Below, piece by piece: positions 14,775 to 53,515 of a DNA stretch of 64,000 nt. Each line of letters starts with the position of its first letter. Position 1 is the first letter of the stretch. The notes under the pieces are model-generated. The model saw nothing but the letters and a program-made list of their open reading frames with translations, did no database searches and was not told the DNA's origin. The DNA is from Gammaproteobacteria bacterium (GTDB taxonomy: Bacteria; Pseudomonadota; Gammaproteobacteria; Steroidobacterales; Steroidobacteraceae): positions 1 through 64,000 of the forward strand of contig PLAH01000181.1 in the NCBI GenBank assembly GCA_003134045.1, read 5' to 3'. Both the position numbers and the translations under genes were made by a program.

Positions 14775-14786
14775 ATGTAGGCTCCG

Positions 14787-16306: not shown

Positions 16307-16314
16307 GGCAATAC

Positions 16315-16520: not shown

Positions 16521-16522
16521 CC

Positions 16523-21447: not shown

Positions 21448-21945
21448 ATGTGGTTGCAGGATTTTTCCACGTGGCTAGCTGCCACGCCCGCGAGTTTGTT
21501 CATCCAGGCCACGGACGCGATCATTCCGGCTGTGCAGACAATTCATATTCTCTGCATTGCAGTGGTTATTTCGGCCGTGTTGCTGGTTCACCTGCACACA
21601 CTCGGTATTGCGATGCGCTCCCAGTCCGGCGCGGCGCTCGCAAAGCGCTTTTTCCCTTGGCTGTGGTGGGCGCTGGCACTGCTGCTACTGTCCGGCACTA
21701 TCCTGATTATTGCTGAGCCGGATAGATCGCTGTCCAACTGGGTGTTCCAGCTGAAAATGCTGCTGGTGATTGCCGCCGTCGTGTTGACATTCCTGTTCCA
21801 GCAGCCACTGCGCAAGGACCCCGACTATTGGCAAAAAAGTGCCGCGCGCCGCACGAACGCCGGGGCGATTGCCATTGTCTCGCTGTGTGTGTGGGTTGGC
21901 ATCGTATTTGCGGGGCGTTGGATCGCGTATGCCATTGCCTATTGA
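21448..21945 (+). CDS. Integral membrane protein, DUF6644-like (first of pair)
   Basis: The ATG at 21448 follows GAGGAGG and gives 165 residues. About four membrane segments are visible: IHILCIAVVISAVLLVHLHT, LWWALALLLLSGTILIIAE, KMLLVIAAVVLTFLF and GAIAIVSLCVWVGIVFAGRW. It pairs with the next gene, which has the same topology. A decayed third copy lies at 24318-24467. The function is unknown. Confidence 0.75.
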   Translation: MWLQDFSTWLAATPASLFIQATDAIIPAVQTIHILCIAVVISAVLLVHLHTLGIAMRSQSGAALAKRFFPWLWWALALLLLSGTILIIAEPDRSLSNWVFQLKMLLVIAAVVLTFLFQQPLRKDPDYWQKSAARRTNAGAIAIVSLCVWVGIVFAGRWIAYAIAY

Positions 21946-21995
21946 GACCGGTGCAGCCACCGCTGTCCCGGACCATTCCTTAATCGAGATCTGAC

Positions 21996-22487
21996 ATGTC
22001 ATCCTCGCAGGCTTTTTTCAGTTGGATTCAACACTCCGCGCTCAGCTCGACCATTCGTGGGAGCACCAGCCTGTTTCCCTGGCTGGAAAGCATTCACGTG
22101 CTGGCGATTACGACAGTCGTCGGAACGATCGCAGTCGTGGACCTGCGTCTGGTGGGGCTCGCGTCCCGCGACCGCCCGGCTTCCGAACTGATGGCAGACA
22201 TCCTGCCGCTCACCCGTGCCGCGTTCGCGCTCGCCGTCCTAACCGGCAGTCTGCTATTCGCGTCGAATGCGTTGGACTACCTGCACAAAGCCCCGTTTGT
22301 CGCCAAGCTCATTCTGCTATGCGTCGCGCTGCTCAATATCGCAGTGTTCCACAGGCTCACCGTTCGGGACATCCAGAGATGGGATACCGCGCGGTCACCG
22401 CCGCTCTCAGTAAAACTGGCGGGTGCAATCTCCCTGGCTGTCTGGATTGGCGTCGTCGCATGCGGCCGCTGGACCGGCTTCGTTTGA
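21996..22487 (+). CDS. Integral membrane protein, DUF6644-like (second of pair)
   Basis: The 163-residue protein has four likely membrane segments, including FPWLESIHVLAITTVVGTIA, FALAVLTGSLLFASNAL, AKLILLCVALLNIAVFH and AGAISLAVWIGVVACGRWTG. The last segment ends in C/AGRW like its neighbour. It lies 50 nt after the first gene; the two probably act as a heteromer. Confidence 0.75.
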   Translation: MSSSQAFFSWIQHSALSSTIRGSTSLFPWLESIHVLAITTVVGTIAVVDLRLVGLASRDRPASELMADILPLTRAAFALAVLTGSLLFASNALDYLHKAPFVAKLILLCVALLNIAVFHRLTVRDIQRWDTARSPPLSVKLAGAISLAVWIGVVACGRWTGFV

Positions 22488-23457
22488 TTGCCCGCCGCGG
22501 AGCATAGCAATAGATCAATTAGGAGTCGGCGGTGAGTATGTCTGCTTTGCCGCGCAGATACCTGTAGGTCGCGTTCTTGATCTTTTCCTGCGCCTCCGTC
22601 TTGATGTCGGCCCATACCCGGGTACGCACAGCGTCGTAGTCCAGAAGTTGCGGGGCCCTGCGCTCGTTCATGACCACGATATGGATCCCATCGCTGTCAA
22701 CTATGGGGTCCGACACATCGCCGCCCAAGAGCGTCATGGCTGCCTCGTAGACTTTGGGGTCCAGATTGGCCTGCGCTCCAAACTCAAAGATATCGCCAAG
22801 GTCGGCGGAATGTCGGCGTCGCGGCAGCGTTGCCGGCGGAGCCGGGAGTGTAATAACCCAAATTGCCCGAAGGCCTGCTGCGCTGGGCTGCAGGAGCGGG
22901 TACGGCGGGCGGCATACGGCAAATTTTCAGTCATTGGCGACCCTGGAATGGGGAATGGTCGCCCGGGAGCCGACGCTCGGGCCTTAAGGTAGGATATGCG
23001 TGGGGAACGCGAACGAAGAGTCCGCGCATGGGTGAACGCGCCGAACCAACAAGTCTTCAGGAAGCAATAAGGCCGCATTGATGGCGGCCAGATTCGTAGA
23101 CTGCCTGATCCACCGGGAAGAACAATGACCGCCATTTGTTTGCCAATGCCAACCGCCGAAGAGGGGCGAGTCGCTTTTTGAATATGCACTTCGCGTCTGG
23201 CATTTCTGGTGGAAGGTAAAAAAAGACAGTCGCGAGCCCTTGGTCCACGCATGCATACTTGCCGTGCTGCTGGACTATCGGCTCATAAAGCGGCGCAATA
23301 CGCTGGCAGATAGGATCTTCTTTCCCACCCCAGGCGCGAAAAACACCAAACATATCGGTAGTTAGACAAAGAATCGATAATAGATGTATGATTAGTGTGA
23401 GCGGACAGCGGAGCTGTACCGTTTGAATCCGCTGATACAGAACCGGGGTGCAGTTGC
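22488..23457. other. Degenerate region before catabolic cluster A
   Basis: Apart from the PpiC-type fragment at its left end, the stretch holds no intact gene that I can recognise. Minus-strand open frames at 22734-23492 show no family features. The last 120 nt are AT-richer and should carry the promoter of the plus-strand cluster. Confidence 0.5.
22519..22830 (-). pseudogene. PpiC/parvulin-type prolyl isomerase C-terminal fragment
   Basis: The minus-strand frame reads ADLGDIFEFGAQANLDPKVY, EAAMTLLGGDVSDPIVDSDG and IHIVVMNERRAP. This matches the latter part of a parvulin domain, where a GDL..F..G motif precedes F..A...L..G.vS.pv....G.Hii. The N-terminus and start are missing. Confidence 0.62.
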
Positions 23458-24303
23458 ATGAAATTGTGTCGATTTGTCGAGGGCGGTCGCACGCGTATCG
23501 GTCGCGTGGCCGACGATCAGGTGGTCGATCTCAGCGAGATCGTGGGGGTAGGGGGGTCGATGCGCGAACTGCTGGCCAATCTGCCGGCGCTGCGTACGGC
23601 CGTGGAGAACGCCAAAGGACCGCGCTTTGCGTTGTCCCAAGTAAAGCTCGCCGCCCCGATTCACGACCCACAGAAATTCCTCGCCATTGGGATGAATTAT
23701 GTCGCCCATGCCAATGAGGCCGCAGCGGCGGGTATTCCCATCCCGAAATCCCAGCTTTGGTTTAACAAACAGGTCAGCTGCATCACCGGGCCATACGACG
23801 ACGTTCAAGTGCCAAAAGTGTCTGACAAGGTCGACTATGAGGCGGAGCTCGCCTTCGTCATCGGCAAGCGTTGCCGCCATGTGTCGGCCCAAGATGCGCG
23901 CAAGGTCATCGCCGGATATCTCGTGTGCAACGATGTGACCGCGCGCGACTGGCAGCAACGCTCACCCACCTATACTCTAGGCAAGAGCTTCGATACCCAT
24001 GGTCCAATCGGCCCGTGGATCACCACGGACGATGAGATCGACGATCCGCATGCGCTGACGATGTGGCTCACGGTCAACGGAGAGGAACGGCAGCGAGGCG
24101 GGACTGGGGGCATGATTTACAACATCTACCAGCAGATCGAGTATCTCTCGACTGTGATGACTCTGGAACCTGGAGACCTCATCGCTACCGGCACGCCCTC
24201 GGGGGTCGGCATCGCGAGTAACCGGTTCCTGAAGCCCGGTGACGTCGTGCGCGTCGAGATCGAATCGCTGGGTGCCATCGAGAATCGCTTCGTGGCGGAA
24301 TAG
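23458..24303 (+). CDS. Fumarylacetoacetate hydrolase (FAH) family protein
   Basis: This 281-residue cytoplasmic enzyme belongs to the family that hydrolyses, hydrates or decarboxylates beta-diketo acids and their enols after ring cleavage. The metal-site residues are visible in DYEAELAFVIGK (ExE), and active-site segments in FLAIGMNYVAHANEA and LGKSFDTHGPIGPWI. The C-terminal signature is DLIATGTPSGVGIA. It is the first gene of cluster A, upstream of a decayed DUF6644 fragment and the extradiol-type gene. Five FAH homologues occur in the window. Confidence 0.9.
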   Translation: MKLCRFVEGGRTRIGRVADDQVVDLSEIVGVGGSMRELLANLPALRTAVENAKGPRFALSQVKLAAPIHDPQKFLAIGMNYVAHANEAAAAGIPIPKSQLWFNKQVSCITGPYDDVQVPKVSDKVDYEAELAFVIGKRCRHVSAQDARKVIAGYLVCNDVTARDWQQRSPTYTLGKSFDTHGPIGPWITTDDEIDDPHALTMWLTVNGEERQRGGTGGMIYNIYQQIEYLSTVMTLEPGDLIATGTPSGVGIASNRFLKPGDVVRVEIESLGAIENRFVAE

Positions 24304-24317
24304 TCGGTCGTGCGGGG

Positions 24318-24467
24318 CCCGCGAGATGCTTATTTTCGTGCTTGTGGGTGGGACTGTTGGTGCTGCTCTTATCGGGACGTATTCTGGTGGTAGCCGAGCC
24401 TGGTCGTTCACTGCCGAACCAGATTCTTGAATTGAAGAGGGTACTCATGCGCGCCGCGGCACAATAG
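24318..24467 (+). pseudogene. DUF6644-like membrane protein fragment
   Basis: In the third plus frame the sequence reads ARCLFSCLWVGLLVLLLSGR, ILVVAEPGRSLPNQILELK, then a stop at 24467. It parallels LWWALALLLLSGTILIIAE of the 21448 protein. Only the middle portion survives, sitting between two catabolic genes. Confidence 0.7.
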
Positions 24468-24546
24468 TCGAATTGTTTTTATACTATGCCTTTGCTGACG
24501 CAATGCACGAGAGGCGCTGTCCGTACGCAACCCGCTTGGAGTCACG

Positions 24547-25380
24547 ATGACTATCGACGCTAGGTTGGAACGTTTGGTCATCTCGAGTCCGGATGTTGAA
24601 CGAGTCGCCAAGTTCTACGTTGACACTTTCGGCTATTGTGCCGAGATGCATGGAGACGAAGCGCGCTGCGAGGCCCCTGGGCGATCGTTGTGGATCAGAT
24701 CGGGCCGCGTCAATCAGCTGCTCGAATCGCATTTCGTGTTTGCCAACTCGGCGGCCCTCGATTGCTACATCGAACGCCTTGAGAAACGGCGGATCACGTT
24801 TACTCGCCAACACGGGGAAAGCGGCATTTCGATCCGAATACAGGATCCTGACGGTCGAAGCGTATGCTTCGCGGTAAATGTCGAGAGTCGACCGGTGGCG
24901 AGCGTTGGGGCTGGCGAGAAGCACTCTGCGCGCCTGCAACATTACGCGGTTCGTAGCCCCGTCCCGCAGGTGTTGCTCGACTTTTATGCGAACTCACTCG
25001 GCTTCACGGTGTCTGATCTCGTGCGAGATCAGGCCGGCGATTTGACTGCGGCGTTCCTCCGCAGCGATGCGGAACATCATTCGCTCGCCATTTTTCGTGC
25101 CGCCGAGCCGCGCTTCGATCATTTTTCGTGTGAGACGCAGGACTGGCATTCCTTGCGCGACTGGGCTGACCTCATGGCGCGCCGATCGGTCCGCCTTGCC
25201 TGGGGCATCGGCCGGCATGGACCCGGGAATGACACATTTTTCATGGTGCTGGATCCGGACGGCAACCTTGCCGAGATTTCCTCGGATCTCGAGCAGTGCG
25301 CGCCTGAGCGAGCAGTGGGCAGTTGGGATCATCGAATGGAAACGCTCAATCAGTGGGGCGTGGCCATCATGCGTAGTTGA
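24547..25380 (+). CDS. Type I extradiol-dioxygenase-like (VOC) ring-cleavage enzyme
   Basis: The 277-residue, two-domain VOC protein matches extradiol dioxygenases, which open catechol rings next to the diol using Fe(II). The expected 2-His-1-Glu triad is present in the C-terminal domain: His in RLQHYAVRS, His in RFDHFSCE and Glu in NLAEISSDLE. DPDGNLAEI matches the family's C-terminal signature. The paralogue at 52608-53474 has the same triad. It is followed 28 nt later by the aldehyde dehydrogenase. The preferred catechol is not evident. Confidence 0.82.
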   Translation: MTIDARLERLVISSPDVERVAKFYVDTFGYCAEMHGDEARCEAPGRSLWIRSGRVNQLLESHFVFANSAALDCYIERLEKRRITFTRQHGESGISIRIQDPDGRSVCFAVNVESRPVASVGAGEKHSARLQHYAVRSPVPQVLLDFYANSLGFTVSDLVRDQAGDLTAAFLRSDAEHHSLAIFRAAEPRFDHFSCETQDWHSLRDWADLMARRSVRLAWGIGRHGPGNDTFFMVLDPDGNLAEISSDLEQCAPERAVGSWDHRMETLNQWGVAIMRS

Positions 25381-25408
25381 ATCGTCGTTGTCAGAAGGAG
25401 AACGTAGA

Positions 25409-26914
25409 ATGAGCACCGTATCCGATAAAGTGGCTTTCGCAACGCCGGTTCCCGGTGGACTTCTCGACGCGAGCGTCTGGGGTAGCAAGGTGTACACGGG
25501 CGGCGAGTGGCGCGGCACCGCTTCGACTCTGCGGGTGCGCGAGCCCGCGACCGGCGAAACGCTCGGTGTGGTGGGCGAGTCTCAGCCCACCGATCTGCCG
25601 GCAATCGTCGAGCATGCGCAACGCGTGCAGGCGAAGTGGGCGCTCAAACCCGCCGAGGAGCGTGCCGCATTGATGCGCCGTGCCGCTCGGGTTTTTGAAG
25701 ATGCGCGGCCTGCTTTGTTAGATGCGATTCAGCGCGAGACCGGCGGCGTTCGCGGGAAGGCGGAAGTCGAACTCGGCGGCTCCATCGATGAGCTGTACCA
25801 CGCGGCGGCGTTGCTGATCCAGCCGGAAGGACAAATCCTTCCGAGCTCGAACCCTGAGCGGTTGAGCCTCGCGCGGCGCGTACCCTTGGGTGTCGTGGGG
25901 GTCATTGCGCCTTGGAATTTTCCGCTGCTGCTGGCCATGCGATCGGTCGCGCCTGCCATTGCGCTCGGCAACGCGGTCATTCTGAAGCCCGATCCGCAGA
26001 CGCCAATCGTCGGCGGAGCAATCATCGCACGCGCTTTCGAGGAGGCGGGGCTGCCGGCGGGCCTCTTCAATCTCATCAATGGCGGTGCGGCGGTGGGCGA
26101 GGCGCTGGTCGAGGCGCGCGGCGTGCGCATGATTACCTTCACCGGTTCGACGGCGGTCGGCCGGCGAGTGGGCGAGCTGGCGGGAAAACACATCAAGCGC
26201 GTTGCGCTCGAACTCGGAGGCAAGAGCCCATTTATCGTGCTCGACGATGCGGATCTGGAAGCGGCGGCCGCCGCCGGTGCCTGGGGTTCGTTCTTGCATC
26301 AGGGCCAAATCTGCATGGCCATCGGCCGGCACATCGTGCTTCGCAAGGTGGCCGATGAATATGCGGAGATTCTCGCTCGCAAAGCCCGCGCGCTGCCGGT
26401 GGGCGACCCGTTTCGCGAGCAGGTCGCCATCGGGCCCCTCATCAACGAGAAGCAGCTGGCGCGGGTCGATAAGATCGTGCAGGACTCGGTGGCCAGCGGC
26501 GCGCAGTTGCTCGCCGGTGGAACGCACAAGGGTCCGTACTACAACCCGACCGTGTTGCATCACGTGACACCCTCGATGTCGGCGTACGAACTAGAGATCT
26601 TCGGGCCGGTGGCGCCAATTGTCGTGGCTGAGGACGAGGAGGACGCAATTCGTATCGCCAACGATACCGACTATGGCTTGTCGGGTGCGGTCCAAACCGG
26701 CTCGCTCGAGCGGGGGCTGCGCGTGGCGCGCCAGATCCGGTCTGGTCTGGTGCACATCAATGACCAGACCATCCACGACTTTGCCGGCATCCCCTTTGGC
26801 GGTCGCGGGACATCAGGTAACGGCTCGCGCTTCGGCAGCGTCAGCAACTTGGACGAGTTCACCGAGTGGCAGTGGATGACGGTGGGCGGCAAGCCGACGC
26901 CGTATCCGTTCTGA
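25409..26914 (+). CDS. NAD(P)-dependent benzaldehyde/vanillin-type aldehyde dehydrogenase
   Basis: The ATG at 25409 follows AGAAGGAG, giving 501 residues. The catalytic Glu lies in ALELGGKSP and the Cys in [12 protein letters not shown]; cofactor contacts lie in IAPWNFPL and [10 protein letters not shown]. The C-terminal signature [20 protein letters not shown] and PYPF is characteristic of benzaldehyde and vanillin dehydrogenases. Its place just upstream of a benzaldehyde lyase homologue fits oxidation of released aryl aldehydes. It is cytoplasmic. Confidence 0.9.
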
Positions 26915-26982
26915 ACCGCGGACTCTCTCTCGGGTTCACAATTTGAAGGTCCCTTGCGTGAGGGATCTTCACGAGGAACGGT

Positions 26983-27807
26983 ATGAGTACAGTTTTAATT
27001 ACTGGGTGCGGCTCCGGTTTCGGCGAGGCGCTCGCGCTCGCTTTTGCCAAGCGCGGCGATAATGTAATTGCCACGATGCGGCGGCCTGAAACGGCGCCGG
27101 CATCGATCAAGAATCTCGTCGCGGAACGACCGTCTGCCGTGACCATCGCGGCATTGGATGTCAACGACGCAGACGCACGTCGCCGAGCCGTCGACCTGGC
27201 AGTGAGCAGGTTCGGGCGCTTGGACGTTCTCGTCAATAGCGCCGGGGTGGGCGCTTCGGGATCGCTGGAAGATATGCCGACGAGCACTCTGAACACCATT
27301 TTCGCCACTAATTTCTTTGGGCCGCTGGAACTCATGCGGCTCGCGCTGCCCGTTATGCGAAAACAGGGCACGGGCCGCATCATCAACATCACTTCCGTGG
27401 CGTCGTTGTTCAGCACGCCATTCATGAGCGCGTACTGCGCGAGCAAGCAAGCTCTCGATGCCGCATCGATTGCGCTCGATATCGAGTCGCGAAGTTTTGG
27501 CGTGCGCGTTGCTGCGATTGTTGCTGGTCCGTTCAAGACGAGCTTGCCGGCGAAGTCGCTTGATATCCCGCCGAGCGAGCCCTATGCGGCCACTCACGGG
27601 CACTTCAAAAACGTGTTTGCGGAGCTCGAAAAGCACGCGGCGGAAGACCTGTCGCCGCTCGTGAAAACCGTCTTGGCGGCGTCCAGCGAGGCGAATCCGT
27701 CGTTACGCTACGTGGTAGGGACCGACGGCATCCCCTTCATTCCGAATCTGCTGAAAGCGCTGGAGCCTGAGCAGATTTTTGCTCTTCGCCTGACGGGTCA
27801 GCAGTAA
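26983..27807 (+). CDS. Short-chain dehydrogenase/reductase (SDR)
   Basis: The 274-residue classical SDR has the nucleotide motif TGCGSGFGEA, NSAGVGASG, the catalytic Ser region (ITSVASLFSTPF) and YCASKQALD. Its stop overlaps the start of the next gene by one base (TAATG), so it is translationally coupled to the benzaldehyde lyase homologue. It may interconvert a benzylic alcohol and ketone of the acyloin substrate; this role is inferred from position only. Confidence 0.9.
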   Translation: MSTVLITGCGSGFGEALALAFAKRGDNVIATMRRPETAPASIKNLVAERPSAVTIAALDVNDADARRRAVDLAVSRFGRLDVLVNSAGVGASGSLEDMPTSTLNTIFATNFFGPLELMRLALPVMRKQGTGRIINITSVASLFSTPFMSAYCASKQALDAASIALDIESRSFGVRVAAIVAGPFKTSLPAKSLDIPPSEPYAATHGHFKNVFAELEKHAAEDLSPLVKTVLAASSEANPSLRYVVGTDGIPFIPNLLKALEPEQIFALRLTGQQ

Positions 27808-29501
27808 TGCCGATTACGGGCGGCGAACTCGTGGTCCGAACCCTGCGCGCAGCGGGTGTGGATCGCCTATTCGGCCTGCACGGCGCGCACATAGACGCGA
27901 TCTTCCAGGCGTGTCTCGATGCCGGCTTGCCCATCATTGATACTCGGAACGAAATGAATGCGGGACATGCCGCCGAAGGCTACGCACGTAGCCTTCGGCG
28001 GGTCGGCGTGGCCCTCGTCACCGCCGGTGGCGGCATGACCAATGTCGTCACGTCGCTGGCGCAGGCGCGTCAGGATCGCACGCCGCTCCTCGTGATTGCG
28101 GGATCCGGGCCACTGCGCGACGATGAAACCAATACGCTTCAGGCAGGAATCGATCAGGTGGCGATCGCGACGCCCGTCACCAAATGGGCGCACCGCATTC
28201 GCGCGGTGGAGCACATCCCCCGCTTGGTCGCTCAGGCCATCCGCATCGCCACTACCGCGCCACGCGGACCGGTCATGCTCGACATCCCCTGGGATATCCT
28301 GACCGGGCAAGTCGAGGAGGCCGTCCTTGGCCCGCCGCCGTCGGTGTATCGGGCCGCCGGCAGCGCCATTGCCTCGGCAGAGCTGGCTCGCACTCTCGAT
28401 ATCCTTCGAACGGCGGCCCGTCCCGTCATTGTGGTCGGTTCCGAGGCGAAGGCGGGCGGGGCGCACGAGAGCCTGGGAAGGCTGGTCGCCGCGAGCGGCG
28501 TCCCCGTGTTTTCCGACTTCGAAGGACTGGGGCTCCTGCGGGATATACCGGCGACACACCGCGGCGGTCTGGTCCAGGCTCTGTACGGTCTCGCCGCGAA
28601 AGGCGCTGCGCCTGACGTAGTACTTCTCTTGGGGACACGCTTCGGGCTCAACACCGCGCATGGGTCGGGCCTTCTCTTGCCGCTCGACGCGCGCATCGTC
28701 CAGATCGATCCGGACGGTCGTGAACTCGGCAGGCTGCAGGCCGTGGAGCTCGGCATTGCCGCCGACGTCGCGCCATCGATCGCGGCGCTCGCCGATGCGG
28801 TTGAATCGGTGGTTTGGGCGGATCGCGGCGCTTGGCGAAGTCTGCTTCGCAACCACATAGAAGCGCGGCGCGCGAAAGTGGCAGAGCGAGCGAGCGGTAC
28901 CCCCAGGCTGCATCCGTTTCATGCGTCCGAGATCGTCGCACGCCAGGTGGGCCGCAAGACCACCGTCGTGGCGGACGGAGCCCTCACCTACCTCTGGCTG
29001 AGCGAGGTGATCAGTGACGCCACGCCAGGAGAATTCTTGTGCCATGGCTATCTGGGATCGATGGGCGTGGGTTTCGGAGTCGCTTTGGGCGCACAGGCTG
29101 CCGCCTCGAGCACGGGACAGCGCACCATCCTCGTCACCGGCGATGGCTCTATCGGTTATAGCCTCGCGGAGTTTGACACTGCGGTACGGCATCATCTGCC
29201 GCTCATCGTGGTGATCATGAACAATCGAAGTTGGGGCGCGACTCTTCATTTTCAGGAGCTGGCGGTGGGGCCTGATCGGGTCACCAACACGCGATTGGAT
29301 AATGGCGCCTATCACGACGTGGCCAGAGCGCTCGGCGCCGACGGTTATCACGTCACCGATAAGGACGGGTTGGAGCGCGCATTGACCGAGGCGTTGGCGA
29401 AAGACCGACCGGCCTGTATCAACGTCGAAGTCGATATCGCCCCGATACCGCCGGAAGAAATGCTCCTGATCGGCCGCGACCCGTTTGAGCGCCAGGAATA
29501 G
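27807..29501 (+). CDS. Benzaldehyde lyase homologue (ThDP-dependent)
   Basis: The 564-residue enzyme closely follows Pseudomonas benzaldehyde lyase, which cleaves benzoin-type acyloins to aldehydes with thiamin diphosphate and Mg. Visible matches are ITGGELVVRTL, LFGLHGAHIDAIFQAC, TNTLQAGIDQVA, ADGALTYLWLSE and the ThDP motif TGDGSIGYSL...MNN. The expected active-site His28, Glu49 and the Gln of TLQAG (His29, Glu50, Gln113 in the reference numbering) are all present. It is coupled to the SDR upstream and followed by a VOC gene 3 nt later. A close paralogue sits at 49758. Confidence 0.88.
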   Translation: MPITGGELVVRTLRAAGVDRLFGLHGAHIDAIFQACLDAGLPIIDTRNEMNAGHAAEGYARSLRRVGVALVTAGGGMTNVVTSLAQARQDRTPLLVIAGSGPLRDDETNTLQAGIDQVAIATPVTKWAHRIRAVEHIPRLVAQAIRIATTAPRGPVMLDIPWDILTGQVEEAVLGPPPSVYRAAGSAIASAELARTLDILRTAARPVIVVGSEAKAGGAHESLGRLVAASGVPVFSDFEGLGLLRDIPATHRGGLVQALYGLAAKGAAPDVVLLLGTRFGLNTAHGSGLLLPLDARIVQIDPDGRELGRLQAVELGIAADVAPSIAALADAVESVVWADRGAWRSLLRNHIEARRAKVAERASGTPRLHPFHASEIVARQVGRKTTVVADGALTYLWLSEVISDATPGEFLCHGYLGSMGVGFGVALGAQAAASSTGQRTILVTGDGSIGYSLAEFDTAVRHHLPLIVVIMNNRSWGATLHFQELAVGPDRVTNTRLDNGAYHDVARALGADGYHVTDKDGLERALTEALAKDRPACINVEVDIAPIPPEEMLLIGRDPFERQE

Positions 29502-29503
29502 AT

Positions 29504-30049
29504 ATGCGTACCTTCGGCTTCGGCCAACCTGACAACAGCATCATTCAACTCGCCTATGTCGTGACCGACCTTGCCACGGCGATGGAGGAATGGCGCACGT
29601 TGCTGCGCATCGGGCCGTGGTTTGTCCTGCGCCAATTCGCGGGAATGGATCCGCGCTACCGCGGTGAACCGGCGCTCGCGCGCTGCGATGTCGCGTTTGG
29701 ATTCGCGGGGCACATGCAATATGAGCTCATCCATCAGACCGACGACCATCCATCGATTTACCGCCGCGAGGATGGGAGCTTGAAACTTGGTTTTCATCAC
29801 TACGGAATGGCGTCCGCGGATTTTATGAGCGATGTGATGCGGTTGGAGGCTCGTGGGTTCGAGAAGCAATTCACGGCTGTCGTGCCGTCCGGTGGGCGAG
29901 TGGCCGCTTACGATACGAAGGGAGTTCTCCCCGGCATGATCGAGTTGATCGAGTCTGACACCGCTCTCGACGAGATGTTCACCGGCATGTATCGAGCCAG
30001 CGTCGACTGGGATGGCGCCAACCCGGTTCGTGAAATTGCGATGTCTTGA
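29504..30049 (+). CDS. Single-domain VOC family protein
   Basis: This 181-residue cytoplasmic protein begins IIQLAYVVTDLATAMEEWRT and has LGFHHYGMASADFMSDVMRL and PGMIELIESD, the pattern of a glyoxalase/methylmalonyl-CoA-epimerase-like VOC domain. His and Glu residues suited to a metal site are present. It starts 3 nt after the benzaldehyde lyase homologue, so their roles are probably linked. A decayed copy of its C-terminus lies before the second benzaldehyde lyase gene. Confidence 0.8.
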   Translation: MRTFGFGQPDNSIIQLAYVVTDLATAMEEWRTLLRIGPWFVLRQFAGMDPRYRGEPALARCDVAFGFAGHMQYELIHQTDDHPSIYRREDGSLKLGFHHYGMASADFMSDVMRLEARGFEKQFTAVVPSGGRVAAYDTKGVLPGMIELIESDTALDEMFTGMYRASVDWDGANPVREIAMS

Positions 30050-30103
30050 ACCCACACGTCCTGCTAAACTTTATTTACAGCACGCGATTTAAGGGGATTT
30101 GTA

Positions 30104-30961
30104 TTGAAACTAGCCACATTCGCTACCGTGGGGTCCGATGAGATCGGTATCGTAAAAGACGGGCGCATCCTGTCGATCACACGCGCGTTGCCCCAGGCGC
30201 CACGCACTATGATCGAGCTGATTGGCCGCTTTGATGAGTTTCGTGCACAGATCCAACAGCTCGAGAGTTCGAGCGACGGTTGGCTTGCCCTGGGTGATGT
30301 GAAGCTTCGCGCCCCAGTCAGTCGGCCGGGTAAGATATTGGCCATCGGATTGAACTATGCGGATCACATTGCTGAGACCGGGCGCGAGGCGCCAAAGGAA
30401 CAGATGTGGTTCATGAAGGCATCAAGCTCCGCTTCCGGTCCCTACGATGCGATTCAAATTCCCAAGGCCTCGCCCGAGAGCGTCGACTACGAGGTGGAAC
30501 TGGTCGCCGTCATCGGCAAGGGCGGCCGCCACATCACCCGTGAAGCAGCACCGAAGGCGGTGTTCGGATATTGCGTCGGCAACGATGTCAGCGTGCGTGC
30601 GTGGCAGCGTCATTCGCCGCAATGGTCAATCGCCAAGTCCTTCGATACCCATTCGCCATTTGGCCCGTGGATCACGCTCACCGATGAGGTGCCCGATCCG
30701 CACGGTCTCGCAATTCGATGCACGGTTAGCGGCGAGGAGCGTCAGGTGTCGAATACCAAGAATCTTGTGTTCGATCTTTGGGCGCAGATCGAGTACCTGT
30801 CGAAGGCCATGACGCTCGAGCCCGGGGATCTGATTTTCAGCGGCACGCCGGGCGGAGTCGGCTGGGCGCGCAAGCCTCCCGGATTGCTGAAGGCCGGGGA
30901 TGTCGTACGCTGCGAAATTGACCGTCTCGGCTACATTGAGGGCAAGTGCGAGGACGAGTAA
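30104..30961 (+). CDS. Fumarylacetoacetate hydrolase (FAH) family protein
   Basis: The 285-residue protein begins at TTG (30104) after AAGGGGA; no in-frame ATG is available upstream. The N-terminal MKLATFATVG matches that of the other FAH proteins here. Metal-site ExE is in DYEVELVAVIGK; other segments are ILAIGLNYADHIAETG, AKSFDTHSPFGPWI and DLIFSGTPGGVGWA. It would act on a ring-cleavage product as a C-C hydrolase, hydratase or decarboxylase. It is the last enzyme of cluster A before the YceI gene. Confidence 0.88.
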   Translation: MKLATFATVGSDEIGIVKDGRILSITRALPQAPRTMIELIGRFDEFRAQIQQLESSSDGWLALGDVKLRAPVSRPGKILAIGLNYADHIAETGREAPKEQMWFMKASSSASGPYDAIQIPKASPESVDYEVELVAVIGKGGRHITREAAPKAVFGYCVGNDVSVRAWQRHSPQWSIAKSFDTHSPFGPWITLTDEVPDPHGLAIRCTVSGEERQVSNTKNLVFDLWAQIEYLSKAMTLEPGDLIFSGTPGGVGWARKPPGLLKAGDVVRCEIDRLGYIEGKCEDE

Positions 30962-31355
30962 CGTCTCAAATCGTTTCATTGGTTTCCCAAGGCTGTTCGC
31001 GGTGTCGTCGAGCCTGCTGGCTACTGCCATGCGCACCCCGATCACCTTCGCTGCAACTCAAACGGCGCCAGGGCCAGGGAATATGACAATGATTGCGAAT
31101 TGTTACATGGCGCTCGATCGTGGCGACGCGGCCGACTACTCAAGGGCGCGTATGCGGGTCATAGCTGACACGTAACGCTCCCGCGCGTTGCTCGCGGGAC
31201 GTGCTGCGGTTAGGCAACGGTTTGCAATATGTAGTAAATTGACGAGGATCGATTATTCGTAAAACAATCGAAGGAATGAGGCGGTACCGATCGCCTGATT
31301 TAGGCCTCACGATCTCAGTTCTTCTGCAATCATCACCGTCTATTAGGAGTGGCAA
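30962..31355. other. Gene-free stretch upstream of the YceI gene
   Basis: No convincing gene is present. The right part is AT-rich and probably holds the promoter of the YceI gene. A short frame containing MALDRGDAADYSRAR is too brief to call. Confidence 0.45.
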
Positions 31356-32024
31356 ATGATTCGATACCCGGCGCTGGCCTGCGCGCTCATGATAAGTGGC
31401 TTTACCACAGCCGCGCTTGCGGTTCCCCAGGTCTATACCGTCGACCCGCTTCACACCTTCCCGACTTTTTTTGCCGCACATCATGGCGTTTCGCATTGGA
31501 GCGGTAAATTCAACAAGACTTCCGGCAAGGTTTGGCTCGACCGTGAGCATTCCACCGGCAAGATCGACATCACGATCGATACAAGCTCGATAAATTTCGG
31601 TGTTCCCATCCTGGACAAGATCATGCAAGGCGTGGACTACTTCGACACCGCTAAGTATCCCACCGCGACCTATAAGTCCGAGTCGATCACTTTCTCGAAT
31701 GGTATGCCGGTCGGCGCTGACGGGCAGCTGACGCTGAAAGGCGTTACCAAGCCGGTAAAACTCAAGATCGACCACTTTGCCTGCATTAAGAACCCCATGT
31801 TCAATCTTGAGGAATGCGGTGGCGATGCCAGCGCCGACTTCGATCGAGCGCAATTCGGTTTGACCAAGGCGGTAGAGGGAGGCGACTCCACTGTGCACCT
31901 CGTAATTCAAGTAGAGGCTTACTTGGGCGATTCGCTGCCGCCGATGCCGCCAATGCCGCCTGGCATGGGAGCGCCGGGAGCGGCACCTCCAGGCGCGCCT
32001 CCCGGTGGTCGCCCCCCCGGCTAA
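31356..32024 (+). CDS. Secreted YceI-family protein with Pro/Gly-rich tail
   Basis: The 222-residue protein has a signal peptide ending AALAV and a YceI lipocalin-like domain: YTVDPLHTFPTFFAAHHGVS, FNKTSGKVWLDRE, MQGVDYFDTAKYPTATYKSE and LTLKGVTKPVKLKI. YceI proteins bind isoprenoid-like or amide lipids in the periplasm. Two Cys in HFACIKNPMFNLEEC could form a disulfide. The C-terminal 30 residues (PPMPPMPPGMGAPGAAPPGA onward) are a Pro/Gly/Ala tract like those in other secreted proteins nearby. Confidence 0.9.
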   Translation: MIRYPALACALMISGFTTAALAVPQVYTVDPLHTFPTFFAAHHGVSHWSGKFNKTSGKVWLDREHSTGKIDITIDTSSINFGVPILDKIMQGVDYFDTAKYPTATYKSESITFSNGMPVGADGQLTLKGVTKPVKLKIDHFACIKNPMFNLEECGGDASADFDRAQFGLTKAVEGGDSTVHLVIQVEAYLGDSLPPMPPMPPGMGAPGAAPPGAPPGGRPPG

Positions 32025-32290
32025 TCGCCTACGAAGGCTCCACCTCGGAGCGATTGATTCGTCACGGCGCGTTCTTGGCGCTCGGTTCGGTTTGGCCGTA
32101 CCGAGCGCCACTTTGTCGAGCCACGGGTAATTGGCCGACTCCGCCGACGAAGCGAACCTTTCGCGGGCGCTCGACGAGTCAAGGCCGTGTCGCTACCTGG
32201 AGGAAAAGTGCAAGTTCCAGCAATATTTGTGCATTGTGGAAGGCTAAGAGGAGCCTAAGCTCGCCTCGAGCAGTCACTGAAGCCAATACT

Positions 32291-48239: not shown

Positions 48240-48543
48240 ATGAAAGACTTAATCGGCAAAGTCGCGTTTATAACGGGCGGCGCGAGTGGCCTCGGACTGG
48301 TGATCGCGCGCCGAAGAATGCCATATACTTTCGACGGCTTCGGCGGCCGGTTTGGTTGCCTCTGAGAACGTCGGCATCTATGTGGGTGCGAAAATGGCGG
48401 TCGTAGGGATAATGGAAGTGCTGCGAGCGGAAGTCGCGTCCGAGTCTATTGGTGTTTCCGTAGTGTGCCCACATCTGATGCGCACGAACATCTATGAGGA
48501 ACGCCTCGCTCGAGAAGGGCGCTTTGCCGTTCTCTTCGATTGA
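48240..48543 (+). pseudogene. SDR gene with internal deletion
   Basis: The start MKDLIGKVAFITGGASGLGL is an SDR nucleotide-binding region behind GGGAGG. After about 24 codons the frame breaks, and in another frame the C-terminal half resumes with VASENVGIYVGAKMAVVGIM, then EVLRAEVASESIGVSVVCPH. The middle Rossmann strands and catalytic Ser are gone, and the end is truncated where the convergent IclR gene begins. Confidence 0.82.
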
Positions 48544-49340
48544 CGGAGATCCCCGGCTTTGCGATCGGAATTCCCGGTATGTCCGGAAGCAAGTACGCAA
48601 AGTGCCCAATGAATTTCTTCGCTCGCCTTGGATAAGTCTTCGTGCGCCGTCGCAATGAATTTCTGTGTCGTGTACCGTATGGGTGTCACAAACGAGATGC
48701 TCCCGACCACATCCCGTTGCGGATCGAACAAGGGAACCGCGATCCCCGCCATACCAACATCCAATTCCGAATGGGTGACGGCGCTCCCGGCGGCGCGAAG
48801 GTCCCGCAGCCGCGTTTTAACCTGATCCCAGGTGGCCCCAAGCCCGGCCTGTCGCATATCGAGAGAATAACGTCCCTGCAGCGCCTTTGCCGTACGCGAT
48901 GACATGTTTGCCAGGATGACTTTGGATGAAGCACCCCGGAAAAGAGACATAGGGCGTCCACGTTCGTAACTGATTGCAAAATCCACCTGCCCGGCGCTTT
49001 CTTGATGTACACACATCACGTGATCGCGATATAGGCGGCATAACAGTACAACCGCATGCGGCGGTGCCATGGCCGCCAAGCGCTTCATAATCGGCTGAGC
49101 CGTCGTGACCAGCGGATCAAGAAAGCGCATTTGGCGATCGTATTGGGTAATCGCGGGCCCCAGGACGTAGCGGCCAGGGATGAGCGCGGCTAGCAATCCT
49201 GCACGCGACAGGCTGCGGAAGTATCGGTACGTGGTGCTGACGGCAAGGCCAAGTTCCTCGGCTGCCTTCTCCACGGTCCACTCCGGCCGTTCCATCGAAA
49301 AAAGCGCCAGTACGCTAAGGACCTTATCGGCTGTCGTCAC
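48492..49340 (-). CDS. IclR-family transcriptional regulator
   Basis: The 282-residue protein begins MTTADKVLSVLALFSMERPE, then a winged helix-turn-helix (KAAEELGLAVSTTYRYFRSL) and an IclR ligand domain (LFRGASSKVILANM, SELDVGMAGIAVPLFDP). The C-terminal 30 residues are basic and unusual (KRTAKRPSRARRSS). Its 3' end overlaps the SDR remnant. It probably controls cluster C and perhaps the degraded promoter to its left. Confidence 0.88.
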   Translation of the reverse strand: MTTADKVLSVLALFSMERPEWTVEKAAEELGLAVSTTYRYFRSLSRAGLLAALIPGRYVLGPAITQYDRQMRFLDPLVTTAQPIMKRLAAMAPPHAVVLLCRLYRDHVMCVHQESAGQVDFAISYERGRPMSLFRGASSKVILANMSSRTAKALQGRYSLDMRQAGLGATWDQVKTRLRDLRAAGSAVTHSELDVGMAGIAVPLFDPQRDVVGSISFVTPIRYTTQKFIATAHEDLSKASEEIHWALCVLASGHTGNSDRKAGDLRQSKRTAKRPSRARRSS

Positions 49341-49757: not shown

Positions 49758-51443
49758 ATGTCGATGATCACAGGGGGCGAGATCGTCGTACGTACCCTCG
49801 CCAAAGCGGGTGTCGACACATTATTTGGGATCCATGGCGCTCACATCGATACCATTTTCCAAGCATGCCGCGACCACGATTTGCGTATAGTCGATGTACG
49901 GCATGAAATGGCGGCGGGGCATGCCGCGGAAGGGTACGCCAGGGTTAAGCGCACCCTGGGGGTCGCGCTGGTTACTGCAGGGGGTGGATTCACCAACGTT
50001 ATCACGTCGATCGCGAACGCGTTTCTTGACCGCACTCCCGTGCTTTACATTACCGGATCTGGTGCGTTGCGGGATACTGAGACAAACACGTTACAGGCCG
50101 GCATCGACCAAGTCGCGGTGGCATCACCCATTACCAAGTGGGCACATCGGGTAGTCAGCACTGATCAGATCCCACGCCTCGTGGCTCAAGGCATACGCAT
50201 CGCGCGGTCGGCGCCGCGGGGCCCAGTCCTATTGGACATTCCATGGGATGTATTAACAAGCCAGGTCGACGAAACCACGGTAACAATTCCCGCGATCCCT
50301 CCGACGCACGGCGCGTCGCCTCATCCAGCAGATATTGCTGCGGCCCTTGCGTTACTAGGCAGCGCGCAACGCCCGATCATCGTCGTGGGGTCGGAAGCAA
50401 GCCGCAGCAATGTCGGACCCGTCCTCGAGGAATTTGTCTCCCGGACCGGCATACCCGTGTTTGGCGACTACGAGGGCCTCAACCTCCTATCCGGCCTCGG
50501 AGAGGCGAACGCAGGTTTGATCCAAGGCCTGTACGGATTCAATTCCAACGGTGCCGCGCCGGACGCCGTACTTCAACTCGGCGTGCGTTTTGGCCTGAAC
50601 ACGGCGCACGGATCGGGTGCCTTGCTGCCGCTTTCTGCGCGCATCGTGCAAATCGATCCTGATGCGCGCGAATTAGGTCGGCTCCAATCCATAGAGCTTG
50701 GCATCGTCGCCGACGTCGGCGCGGCGCTGGAAGCCCTGACGCTGGCAGCCGCGAAGTTGCCCTGGAAACACCTTCACGACTGGCGAAGTCGTGTAAACCG
50801 GCTGGTCGAGGCGCGTTACCACAATCTCGCACGAAGGATCGATGCGGGAACACCCATTCACCCTTTCGAAGCATCACGCATCGTAGCGGCCAACGTCGAC
50901 AATACGACGGCAGTCGTGGCCGATGGCGCACTGACTTACCTCTGGTTGAGCGAGACGATGTCCAAGGCGTGTCCGGGCGCCTTTCTTACGCACGGCTATC
51001 TTGGTTCGATGGGGGTAGGCTTCGGTACCGCAATCGGCGCACAGCTAGCGGCCCCGCCCGGAAGTTGCACGATCCTCGTCACCGGCGATGGCGCGGTTGG
51101 CTATAGCCTCGCCGAGTTCGATACCTTGGTTCGGCAGGATATCGCGATTATAGTCATCGTCATGAACAATCGAAGCTGGGGCGCCACCCTTCACTTCCAG
51201 CAATACGTGGTTGGGCCTGATCGAATTACCAACACTCGACTGGAAAACGGGCAGTACCATGAAGTAGCCGCAGCGCTTGGAGCCGATAGCTACTTTGTGG
51301 ACGAACCTTCGACATTTGAGAATGCGTTGCGGACCGCGCTAGCCAAGCGTCGCCCGGCGTGCATTAACGTGCGAGTGAGGCTCGACCCCATTCCGCCGGA
51401 GGAGTGCCTGATGATCGGGAAGGACCCTTTTCCGTCGCTTTAA
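49758..51443 (+). CDS. Benzaldehyde lyase homologue (ThDP-dependent), second copy
   Basis: The 561-residue enzyme starts MSMITGGEIVVRTLAKAGVD, aligning from the first residue with Pseudomonas benzaldehyde lyase, which supports the ATG at 49758. Active-site positions His29 (FGIHGAHID), Glu50 (DVRHEMAAGHAAEGYAR) and Gln113 (NTLQAGIDQV) are all conserved, as is the ThDP motif TGDGAVGYSL...MNN. The predicted reaction is cleavage, or reverse formation, of benzoin-type acyloins. It is followed by FAH and extradiol-type genes, mirroring the first copy's neighbours. Confidence 0.9.
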   Translation: MSMITGGEIVVRTLAKAGVDTLFGIHGAHIDTIFQACRDHDLRIVDVRHEMAAGHAAEGYARVKRTLGVALVTAGGGFTNVITSIANAFLDRTPVLYITGSGALRDTETNTLQAGIDQVAVASPITKWAHRVVSTDQIPRLVAQGIRIARSAPRGPVLLDIPWDVLTSQVDETTVTIPAIPPTHGASPHPADIAAALALLGSAQRPIIVVGSEASRSNVGPVLEEFVSRTGIPVFGDYEGLNLLSGLGEANAGLIQGLYGFNSNGAAPDAVLQLGVRFGLNTAHGSGALLPLSARIVQIDPDARELGRLQSIELGIVADVGAALEALTLAAAKLPWKHLHDWRSRVNRLVEARYHNLARRIDAGTPIHPFEASRIVAANVDNTTAVVADGALTYLWLSETMSKACPGAFLTHGYLGSMGVGFGTAIGAQLAAPPGSCTILVTGDGAVGYSLAEFDTLVRQDIAIIVIVMNNRSWGATLHFQQYVVGPDRITNTRLENGQYHEVAAALGADSYFVDEPSTFENALRTALAKRRPACINVRVRLDPIPPEECLMIGKDPFPSL

Positions 51444-51727: not shown

Positions 51728-52594
51728 ATGAAATTGGTTTCGTTTACGCATGAAGGCCGCGATGCAGTGGGATTGCTCCGAGCGGACCGACTCATCGACC
51801 TCAGTCCTTTGAAAGGCCGCTTCAGTGGCACCCTGAAGAATTTGTTGTTGAATGGCGGGGCGGGCGAACTTCAGGACACGGATGTCGACTCATTGCCAGT
51901 GCTGTCGTTGGCGCAGATACGGTTTCAGCCAGTAATCACCGATCCCGGTAAGATTCTATGCATCGGCATCAATTATGCTACCCACATGAAGGAAGCGGGA
52001 CGCGCCATCCCGCAGTACCCGATGGTATTCACCCGCTTCGCCGATTCTCAGGTGGGGCATAACGAGCCCCTGCTACGCCCCCGCAATTCCATCCAATTTG
52101 ATTTTGAGGGTGAACTTGCCGTCGTCATCGGTCGCCCGGCGCATCACGTCAAGGAAGCCGATGCCTTGAATGTCGTTGCCGGCTATTCCTGTTACAACGA
52201 TGGCAGTCTCCGCGATTGGCAGAGGCATACGAGCCAGTTCACGCCTGGGAAAAACTTTCCCCAAACCGGTGGGTTCGGCCCCTGGTTGGTCACTGCCGAT
52301 GAAATTGCGGACCCATCAAAATTACATTTGCAGACGCGCCTCAATGGCGAGGTGATGCAGGATACGGACACTTCGGACATGATATTCAGCGTAAGCAAGC
52401 TTATTGAATATTGCTCGAGCTTTACGCCGTTGGCTCCCGGCGACGTGTTGATCACGGGGACCACGGGAGGGGTTGGAGCATTCCGTCAACCTCCCGTATG
52501 GATGAAACCGGGCGATGTTGTGGAGGTCGAGATCTCGGGCATCGGTACTTTGCGTAACACGGTCGCCGACGAGTCATCCTGGGACCGATCTTGA
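51728..52594 (+). CDS. Fumarylacetoacetate hydrolase (FAH) family protein
   Basis: The 288-residue protein begins MKLVSFTHEGRDAVGLLRAD. It has ILCIGINYATHMKEAGRAIP, DFEGELAVVIGRP (ExE), PGKNFPQTGGFGPWL and DVLITGTTGGVGAF. It resembles ring-cleavage-product hydrolases, and is closest in plan to the 60169 FAH protein of this window. It precedes the extradiol-type dioxygenase by 13 nt. Confidence 0.9.
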   Translation: MKLVSFTHEGRDAVGLLRADRLIDLSPLKGRFSGTLKNLLLNGGAGELQDTDVDSLPVLSLAQIRFQPVITDPGKILCIGINYATHMKEAGRAIPQYPMVFTRFADSQVGHNEPLLRPRNSIQFDFEGELAVVIGRPAHHVKEADALNVVAGYSCYNDGSLRDWQRHTSQFTPGKNFPQTGGFGPWLVTADEIADPSKLHLQTRLNGEVMQDTDTSDMIFSVSKLIEYCSSFTPLAPGDVLITGTTGGVGAFRQPPVWMKPGDVVEVEISGIGTLRNTVADESSWDRS

Positions 52595-52607
52595 GGTGAT
52601 TCACAGC

Positions 52608-53474
52608 ATGGAAGTCTCGACCGTTAAGTCGCGCCGACCAGAAACATGCCTGACGGCAACGCTACATCACCTAGTGATTGCGAGCCCGAGCCCGGCGTTG
52701 CTGGCAACGTTTTACCAAACTGCGTTGGGATACGACATTGCCGAACGAGACGGAATGTTTTTCGCGAAGGCGCTCGACCGACAACTTCTCTTTGTCGCGG
52801 GACGGGCCAAAATCCTCGAGGCCGCCGGATTCGCGGTGCCCGATCGGGCCGAACTCGAACGCCTGCGACGGCGGATCGATGCCTCCCATTGGCCTTGCCG
52901 CCCGGGCGGTTCGCCGCTCTTTGTTGAATCGATTTCGATCCGAGATCCCGACGGCACTGAGTTGATCTTTGGTGTAGCACAGCAGCAATCGGCGCCGCTT
53001 TTGGAGGCGCAAATGTGGCCCGCACGCCTACAACACGTAGTCATGTCCAGCCGAGACCCGGAACGTGTCGTTCGATTTTTCATGGAGGTACTTGGGTTCA
53101 CTTTATCGGATAACGTCATTGATCCAGAAGGAGGAGTGAGAACCTCATTTCTGCGTTGCAGCCATGAACACCACAGCTTCGCGGTCTTCAAGGCATCCGA
53201 GGATCGATTCGATCATCATTGCTACGAGACCAAGGACTGGAATCAGATTCGCGATTGGTGCGATCACATGGCGAAGCAAAATATTCCGATTCAGTGGGGC
53301 CCGGGCCGTCACGGTCCCGGAAACAACCTGTTCATGTTTGTGCACGACACCGATGGTAATTGGGTTGAAATATCGGCGGAACTGGAAGTCGTCGAACACG
53401 ACCGGCCGGTAGGCCAATGGCCGCATGAGCAACGTACTCTCAATAGCTGGGGACAAGGTCTGCTACGCAGTTGA
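52608..53474 (+). CDS. Type I extradiol-dioxygenase-like (VOC) enzyme, second copy
   Basis: The ATG at 52608 gives 288 residues in two VOC modules. The metal triad is present: His in RLQHVVMSS, His in RFDHHCYETKDW and Glu in NWVEISAELE. RHGPGNNLFMFV and the C-terminal LNSWGQGLLRS match the first copy's RHGPGNDTFFMV and LNQWGVAIMRS. It should cleave a catecholic ring using Fe(II) or Mn(II). The hydroxylase gene follows 41 nt later. Confidence 0.84.
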   Translation: MEVSTVKSRRPETCLTATLHHLVIASPSPALLATFYQTALGYDIAERDGMFFAKALDRQLLFVAGRAKILEAAGFAVPDRAELERLRRRIDASHWPCRPGGSPLFVESISIRDPDGTELIFGVAQQQSAPLLEAQMWPARLQHVVMSSRDPERVVRFFMEVLGFTLSDNVIDPEGGVRTSFLRCSHEHHSFAVFKASEDRFDHHCYETKDWNQIRDWCDHMAKQNIPIQWGPGRHGPGNNLFMFVHDTDGNWVEISAELEVVEHDRPVGQWPHEQRTLNSWGQGLLRS

Positions 53475-53515
53475 AGACGCCCGTTGTTTGTCGGCCAGAG
53501 CACCCTGATTCAGCC

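Follow-up and report, generated by a model that had tools for sequence, protein, structure and literature searches.

The stretch analysed here (the window, positions 1-64000 of contig C118, which is 81,431 bp long in a 5.5 Mb assembly of 197 contigs) carries at 23458-30961 seven genes on the + strand, in the order FAH1, VOC1, ALDH1, SDR1, BAL1, VOC2 and FAH2, of which BAL1 encodes a thiamine diphosphate (ThDP) enzyme homologous to benzaldehyde lyase (BAL). An earlier note, made from the sequence, had placed a possible acyloin catabolic cluster at this locus, and all of its genes were found where it had put them, all on the + strand. These include the aldehyde dehydrogenase (ALDH) gene 2.4 kb upstream of 27807 (start at 25409), the short-chain dehydrogenase (SDR) gene coupled to BAL1 by the junction TAATG, and the flanking VOC and fumarylacetoacetate hydrolase (FAH) proteins (extradiol-type VOC1 and FAH1 upstream, VOC2 and FAH2 downstream). 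VOC2 starts 2 bp past the end of BAL1. A second homologue, BAL2, opens a separate gene run at 48.5-55.2 kb, comprising FAH4, VOC4, FMO2 and a divergent IclR-type regulator. The features of the BAL1 block are as follows.

23291..32138, +, block of about 8.8 kb shared with the metagenome-assembled genome (MAG) bog_1223 (PLUE01000039.1), from blastn of locus L011 against the window
23458..24303, +, FAH1, fumarylacetoacetate-hydrolase family (PF01557, 1.1e-73); best solved relative 1gtt (HpaG isomerase/decarboxylase)
24547..25380, +, VOC1, two-domain extradiol-dioxygenase-like protein (PF00903, 8.5e-19; aligned to 1f1r)
25409..26914, +, ALDH1, aryl-aldehyde dehydrogenase type (PF00171, 1.5e-152; PDB relatives)
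26983..27807, +, SDR1, short-chain dehydrogenase (PF00106, 3.2e-46)
27807..29501, +, BAL1, benzaldehyde lyase homologue (ThDP), from 764 bits to 3d7k, sites and tree
29504..30049, +, VOC2, 181-aa VOC protein, methylmalonyl-CoA-epimerase/glyoxalase-like (PF13669, 2.2e-10)
30104..30961, +, FAH2, second FAH-family protein, TTG start (PF01557, 7.3e-66)
31356..32024, +, YceI-family protein, final gene of the shared block (PF04264, 1.4e-32); 90% identical copy in L011
32291..33454, +, cytochrome P450 beside the block (PF00067, 8.1e-22)

The features of the BAL2 run are as follows.

48492..49340, -, IclR-type regulator of a family recurring in BAL loci (homologues in L013, L014, L016 and L018, with IclR domains in that of L013)
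49758..51443, +, BAL2, second benzaldehyde lyase homologue (805 bits to 3d7k; 66.4%; 23 of 26 sites)
51728..52594, +, FAH4, FAH family, 53.5% identical to the FAH lying between SDR1 and ALDH1 at the BAL locus of Rhodoblastus
52515..53474, +, VOC4, extradiol-like two-domain VOC protein, start probably 52608 (HpaD and catechol 2,3-dioxygenase models below cut-offs)
53471..55168, +, FMO2, MhpA-type aromatic ring hydroxylase (NCBIfam equivalog NF004831, 608 bits, cut-off 546)

Identity of the lyases and their partner enzymes

BAL1 and BAL2 belong to the benzaldehyde lyase family, with the corresponding activity predicted. In a search of PDB sequences they scored 764 and 805 bits, respectively, against the benzaldehyde lyase chain 3d7k. 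The next entries after BAL and formolase were 8y8m and 8y7s ('thiamine pyrophosphate-binding protein'; 633 and 602 bits at best), which have no functional name in the PDB listing and were left out of the tree, and below these the scores drop to 205 and 194 bits for oxalyl-CoA-type enzymes. BAL1 is 63.5% and BAL2 66.4% identical to PfBAL (PDB 2AG0, 3D7K), the Pseudomonas fluorescens enzyme. At 26 pocket and cofactor sites, selected as those known for BAL, the PfBAL-like state is present at 25 in BAL1, 23 in BAL2 and 21 in ReBAL. Both window proteins keep A28, H29, E50, Q113, W163, Y397, H415, M421, A480 and F484 of PfBAL and an intact ThDP motif (G447, D448, G449 and N475, plus E50); Q476 is replaced by R in both, and BAL2 also has the changes L25I and L487Y. 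ReBAL differs from PfBAL at sites 24, 397, 419, 484 and 487 and is 50.5% identical to BAL1. It was equated with locus L023 by strain and annotation (plasmid pLRE138), and the available part of a review describes this enzyme, from Rhodococcus erythropolis R138, as an (R)-benzoin-cleaving benzaldehyde lyase (PMC9557007).

The residues His28, Glu49 and Gln112, put forward in the earlier note as marks of BAL, are present but are not diagnostic, because the same trio (H29, E50 and Q113) occurs in two acetolactate synthase (ALS)/2-hydroxyacyl-CoA-lyase-like outgroup rows, L005 and L009, and was therefore rejected as a marker. These outgroups differ from BAL at sites 28, 163, 397, 415, 421, 480, 484 and others, with Ala28, Trp163, Tyr397, His415, Met421, Ala480 and Phe484 present in BAL1 and BAL2 and absent from both outgroups.

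The final tree (IQ-TREE, 24 rows, among them 13 BAL-type and 8 outgroup rows, without ThDP_L038 and with the long row ThDP3 kept) separates the BAL-type rows, including BAL1, BAL2, PfBAL and ReBAL, from the eight ALS-like rows by a branch with support 98/99, recovered in 200 of 200 bootstrap trees, and the node holding exactly the 13 BAL-type rows has support 97/96. It contained no oxalyl-CoA decarboxylase row, and the comparison with those enzymes is by PDB score (at most 205 bits, against 764). This tree replaced an earlier one that included very long rows and an outgroup read in the wrong frame (out_L010); there the BAL-type rows were not united (2 changes; a single group in 1% of bootstrap trees). 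A BAL-like protein at a contig end (L003, 47%) was included in the tree and left out of the neighbourhood counts. The earlier naming of the enzyme at 27807 as a benzaldehyde lyase homologue thus stands on identity, sites and tree together, and the grouping with acetolactate or oxalyl-CoA enzymes that the note had named as grounds for abandoning it was not seen.

The benzaldehyde/vanillin dehydrogenase signature noted earlier in ALDH1 agrees with its nearest solved structures, which are aryl-aldehyde dehydrogenases. Twelve PDB sequences match at E <= 1e-90: nine carry the names of 4-hydroxybenzaldehyde (the best, 400 bits), benzaldehyde, salicylaldehyde or vanillin dehydrogenases, and three are aldehyde dehydrogenases that are unnamed or uncharacterised. 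Acyloin lyase and aryl-aldehyde oxidation are well supported as a pair of predicted functions. The solved relatives of SDR1 (best 119 bits in the PDB) give no pointer to its substrate.

Recurrence and genomic context of the gene set

The window matches bog_1223, another bog MAG, at 96.0% nucleotide identity over 6,778 bp, 93.0% over 897 bp and 89.3% over 948 bp. Beyond 23291-32138 the matches between the two are weak and scattered (64-71%), including a DUF6644-type gene upstream in both. Since the match ends at 23291 and 32138 and the atp-operon stretch of the same two genomes, the one locus pair compared, is only 83.9-87.0% identical, the block appears to have been transferred or acquired as a unit. 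A repeat search of the block gave no convincing mobile-element repeats at its ends: two repeat families reflect the paralogy of FAH1 and FAH2, one 18-nt pair lies within BAL1, and an inverted pair of 27 nt (78%) lies at 22714-22740/30806-30832. Promoter-like sites were close to chance (5 seen, 3.3 expected) and terminator-like sites below expectation (4 seen, 8.9 expected).

A non-exhaustive scan of genome contigs with two short peptide patterns recovered eight BAL loci (53-98% identity), from bog_1223, Methylocella silvestris, Rhodoblastus sphagnicola, Sphingobium cupriresistens, Agrobacterium vitis, Alteraurantiacibacter buctensis, Burkholderia sp. and Sphingomonas canadensis; two other scan loci (L019 and L020, 23-26% identity) were excluded from all counts as not BAL. 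The ReBAL plasmid locus, from a plasmid search, and one genome (G845), from a family search, bring the BAL loci to ten (L011-L018, L023 and L043), not counting BAL1 and BAL2 of the window itself. Within the stretches compared, and at broad family level, an ALDH homologue is present in eight of the ten and an SDR in eight. Methylocella and Rhodoblastus share the order SDR1-FAH-ALDH1-BAL-VOC2, with homologues of SDR1 at 58-60% and of FAH1, further along, at 60-63% identity. The core of ALDH, SDR, BAL and VOC2 thus recurs in these two, and sphingomonads have other ALDH and SDR types.

BAL is rare: among the other genomes sampled, none of 397 from across the phylum (E <= 1e-110) and one of 396 from the Sphingobium family (E <= 1e-130) has it. 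The plasmid scan gave three records, two of which (38-39%) fall in a sister clade of BAL. This clade includes L045, on a plasmid of R. erythropolis BG43, and L046, on pBB1 of Cupriavidus necator; both are 37-41% identical to PfBAL with a different pocket and are candidate acyloin lyases. The neighbours of the BG43 gene encode IclR, an FAD monooxygenase, ALDH, SDR, FAH and an MFS transporter.

The small protein VOC2 is the most specific new element of the gene set, and a homologue lies directly 3' of BAL in five of the ten loci (L011-L014 and L016). Residues Q15, E74, H98, H99 and E147 are invariant in an alignment of six homologues, and in the predicted fold (pLDDT 67.7) Q15, E74, H99 and E147 lie on strands 13-20, 71-78, 97-104 and 145-150, which we take to be the metal-site strands of VOC proteins, with a Gln/Glu/His/Glu ligand pattern presumably as in human glyoxalase I. 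Fold comparison with this mediocre model, in which the Z values are modest evidence, gave glyoxalase I (Z 9.3, rmsd 4.1, 125 aligned), methylmalonyl-CoA epimerase (up to Z 8.8, rmsd 4.2-4.9) and, close to these top matches, hydroxymandelate synthase (Z 8.6) and HPPD (up to 8.4). These results hint weakly that VOC2 could act as an acyloin isomerase or epimerase. The idea that VOC2 is a partner of BAL only was rejected, as relatives also occur in genomes without BAL. Among six stretches with such relatives, an SDR gene is the immediate neighbour of the VOC gene in three (L038, L040 and L042). In L038 (genome G009, 7329-14339) the VOC2 relative stands between an SDR and a benzoylformate decarboxylase gene (768 bits, cut-off 493), with an oxidase of vanillyl-alcohol oxidase (VAO) type, 43% identical to that of Methylocella, also present; this may be a sister pathway with another ThDP enzyme.

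Candidates for ring cleavage are VOC1, FAH1 and FAH2. VOC1 residues H132, H192 and E243 align with what we take to be the 2-His-1-Glu iron ligands of homoprotocatechuate 2,3-dioxygenase 1f1r, and two further active-site His of that enzyme are kept. The nearest solved relatives of FAH1 are HpaG (1gtt, 194 bits) and 2,4-diketo-3-deoxyrhamnonate hydrolase (184 bits). VOC1, ALDH1 and FAH1/FAH2 match the HpaD, HpaE and HpaG models of homoprotocatechuate meta-cleavage, all below the curated cut-offs; the set differs from that pathway in that the solved relatives of ALDH1 are benzaldehyde-type dehydrogenases. No ring hydroxylase was identified among the genes of the BAL1 block. The earlier note had the cluster cleaving an aryl acyloin, oxidising the aldehydes and opening the ring: the sequence supports the lyase and oxidation steps, whereas ring opening by the BAL1 block is only plausible. 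It is more credible for the BAL2 run, because the MhpA-type hydroxylase there exceeds its curated cut-off. With regard to a flavonoid- or isoflavone-type reading of the FMO-VOC-FAH genes, the word 'thiamine' does not occur in the available parts of PMC11069340 and PMC8552027.

Several features of the contig and genome point to lignin. Just outside the window, on contig positions 64001-81431 (L021), four glutathione S-transferases (GSTs) and SDRs lie at 10061-16624 of that stretch and probably form a beta-aryl-ether module. Two of the four GSTs were compared with the PDB, and LigF was the clear best match (190 and 146 bits; next 68-68.5). The three best PDB matches of the SDR beside them are Lig C-alpha dehydrogenases (227.5, 208.1 and 204.5 bits), the fourth being an unnamed SDR (198.2).

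contig 78961-79719, LigF-type GST (LigF 190 bits, next GST 68.5; activity predicted from sequence)

Near this group lie a TonB receptor and an MFS transporter that resemble their counterparts at the Sphingobium BAL locus (48% and 47% identity, respectively). The genome itself has 6 LigA matches (0 of 14 control genomes with a match), 9 LigB matches, two of which look like halves of one gene (4 of 14 controls), and 5 VanA_C matches (4 of 14 controls). LigA adjoins LigB on all five contigs C65, C91, C101, C127 and C140, representing many protocatechuate/gallate-type dioxygenases. A set of 60 genomes that includes this one has 8 with a LigF-like GST, and all 3 that encode a BAL-family enzyme (E <= 1e-150) are among those 8. 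Outside this lineage, 3 of 8 BAL genomes (Sphingobium, Alteraurantiacibacter and Sphingomonas) have a LigF-like gene (E <= 1e-40), and LigF as a universal partner of BAL was rejected on this count. The Methylocella BAL locus encodes a VAO flavoprotein of p-cresol-methylhydroxylase/eugenol-oxidase type (449 bits) with a cytochrome c gene, and the ReBAL plasmid locus carries genes of Rieske/VanB type together with formaldehyde-fixing and folate C1 genes, a combination that would suit methoxylated aromatics. For the lignin-type or plant diaryl dimers suggested earlier as substrates, the lignin context is thus supported by contig and genome, whereas a preference for diaryl over aryl-alkyl ketols is not.

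Proposed pathway and competing explanations

Taken together, these data indicate that the 23.3-32.1 kb block is probably an operon, shared by horizontal transfer, for the catabolism of aryl acyloins (alpha-hydroxy ketones with an aryl substituent), with lignin- or plant-derived compounds as the likeliest substrates. In such a pathway SDR1 would bring a diol or diketone side chain to the ketol level and VOC2 might shift or invert the ketol into a form acceptable to the lyase, a step for which the indications are weak. BAL1, by its family, would then split the C-C bond between the C=O and CHOH groups into an aromatic aldehyde and a second aldehyde, and ALDH1, by its enzyme type, would oxidise the aromatic aldehyde to a benzoate. 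VOC1 with FAH1 and FAH2 may work on ring-cleavage products, or the acids may pass to the LigAB-type dioxygenases of the genome. BAL2, FAH4, VOC4 and FMO2 would serve a related substrate in parallel. Hibbert-type aryl-propanone ketols or diaryl benzoins, from lignin or plants, would be the most likely substrates in nature.

This proposal draws on sequence and gene context, and several observations weigh against it. FAH is found in four and VOC2 in five of the ten BAL loci, so that ring opening and VOC2 do not belong to a universal core; close homologues of ALDH1 and SDR1 (at least 58%) occur only in bog_1223, Methylocella and Rhodoblastus; and the ALDHs of the sphingomonads and Burkholderia share 33% identity with ALDH1. 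ALDH and SDR were counted by broad family, and the BAL neighbours are thus partly different genes of like kind. Of 60 genomes, 16 have relatives of VOC2, and most of these 16 lack BAL; VOC1 has Met where homoprotocatechuate dioxygenase has Tyr257, presumably an active-site residue. The LigF-like genes lie about 45 kb from the BAL1 block, and no LigF-like gene (E <= 1e-40) was found in 5 of the 8 BAL genomes outside the lineage. The BAL/LigF overlap would arise by chance with probability 0.0016 if the genomes were independent, a figure that overstates the association since the genomes are related.

A narrower form of the catabolic proposal, in which the actual substrate is an aryl-alkyl ketol and not a two-ring benzoin, is a serious though tentative possibility. 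Examples would be the Hibbert ketones 2-hydroxy-1-aryl-propan-1-one and 1-hydroxy-1-aryl-propan-2-one, which would yield a vanillin-type aldehyde and acetaldehyde. BAL makes and splits ketols of the 2-hydroxypropiophenone type, and a Lig C-alpha-dehydrogenase homologue lies on the same contig. In Novosphingobium aromaticivorans, Lig C-alpha dehydrogenases turn the Hibbert diketone into the ketol GP-2, and the available part of that study leaves the vanillin-releasing enzyme of the route as a question mark, a gap that BAL would fit (PMC8612281). The sequence, however, does not separate one-ring from two-ring ketols, and benzoin fits equally well. It is rather doubtful that the BAL family as a whole has lignin and plant acyloin catabolism as its natural role, supplying the missing C-C lyase for Hibbert ketones, with VOC2 as a new metal-dependent acyloin isomerase/epimerase. 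If so, VOC2, with its glyoxalase-I-like Gln/Glu/His/Glu site and enediol chemistry, would supply both enantiomers and both ketol regio-isomers to a stereospecific lyase.

A stilbenoid or bibenzyl route, in which epoxidation or benzylic hydroxylation and epoxide hydrolysis give a diaryl diol that SDR converts to benzoin and BAL to two benzaldehydes, is unlikely. It draws on an alpha/beta hydrolase family present in the BAL loci of Sphingobium and Alteraurantiacibacter (about 7.5 kb from BAL) and Agrobacterium vitis (0.8 kb from it), on the VAO-type oxidase and cytochrome c gene of Methylocella, and on the P450 that adjoins the window block and is matched on the Rhodoblastus contig (L044; 75% identical, about 20 kb from BAL there); the stretch compared from bog_1223 (L011) holds no match to this P450. 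The Sphingobium hydrolase, however, falls under every NCBIfam cut-off, with haloalkane dehalogenase as its top name (78 bits against 265), and no match to it was seen in the window block. A role of the ThDP enzyme in ligating aldehydes for detoxification or biosynthesis, in a cluster that is not catabolic, is very improbable: according to the available part of the review the BAL reaction runs both ways (PMC9557007), but the setting looks catabolic, with an aryl-aldehyde dehydrogenase, transporters and TonB receptors alongside ring hydroxylases and dioxygenase-type genes, and no biosynthetic genes were noticed among the neighbours. Least probable of all is that the ThDP enzyme is an acetolactate synthase, oxalyl-CoA decarboxylase or 2-hydroxyacyl-CoA lyase. 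The top NCBIfam name for BAL1 is the acetolactate synthase PRK05858, at 291 bits, far under its cut-off of 587, with TIGR00118 (acetolactate synthase) at 267 bits against 538 and no BAL model among the best 25 of 53 families matched. PDB scores, pocket and tree all favour BAL, and the acetolactate and oxalyl-CoA identities were ruled out on the PDB and NCBIfam scores and the tree.

The enzyme families are known, and the gene set and the route proposed for it form a new variation on them. The literature searched on benzaldehyde lyase operons, their catabolism and benzoin or Hibbert-ketone degradation, in which most subscription papers lay outside coverage, showed no such operon in its titles, opening abstract lines or excerpts, in agreement with the earlier statement that none with this gene set was known to the note's author. 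PfBAL resembles BAL1 and BAL2 in sequence and pocket; no operon for PfBAL came up in the literature searched, whereas the window proteins sit in a recurring gene set. ReBAL has ALDH, SDR, an FAD monooxygenase and an IclR regulator in the same stretch, and differs in having its Rieske/VanB-type and C1 genes in place of FAH and VOC. The sphingomonad Lig system (LigD/L/N, LigE/F and LigAB) is echoed here by LigF-type GSTs, a C-alpha-dehydrogenase homologue and LigA/LigB matches, but its description names no acyloin lyase in the part available (PMC8612281), whereas BAL is present here.

Benzaldehyde lyase, known mainly from laboratory use, is widely applied in biocatalysis and was the starting enzyme for the designed formolase; no description of its natural pathway was found in the literature searched. 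This gene set offers one candidate for that pathway and for the enzyme freeing vanillin from Hibbert ketones, as well as new natural BALs for synthesis. The presence of a recurring, transferable set in cultured Rhodoblastus sphagnicola, Methylocella silvestris and Sphingobium cupriresistens makes the physiological substrate directly testable.

Neighbouring genes

Downstream of the BAL2 run, the - strand at 55315-63921 encodes an ALS-like ThDP enzyme and a StyD-like ALDH (560 bits against a cut-off of 850), together with a GMC oxidoreductase, FAH5 and an HpaB-type hydroxylase. The ThDP enzyme, the third in the window (55315-57027), is acetolactate-synthase-like and has few BAL sites, and the GMC oxidoreductase is 53% identical to one about 5 kb from the Sphingomonas canadensis BAL. 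A probable further catabolic module lies at 40074-48092, with an LDH2-type dehydrogenase, VOC, FAH, amidohydrolase, FAD monooxygenase and alpha/beta hydrolase and, as far as the translations indicate, a cupin and an MFS transporter.

Upstream of the BAL1 block, 20890-22487 holds a DUF6152 gene as well as two paired genes for DUF6644-type membrane proteins; related pairs are found in the BAL loci of bog_1223 (L011, 2344-3363), Methylocella and Rhodoblastus (L012/L013, about 18.8-19.9 kb). Two further genes, at 18158-19342 and 14787-16154, encode two-domain VOC/glyoxalase-like proteins with signal-peptide-like N-terminal segments, judged from the translations (and from Pfam for 18158-19342), and these proteins are possibly exported.

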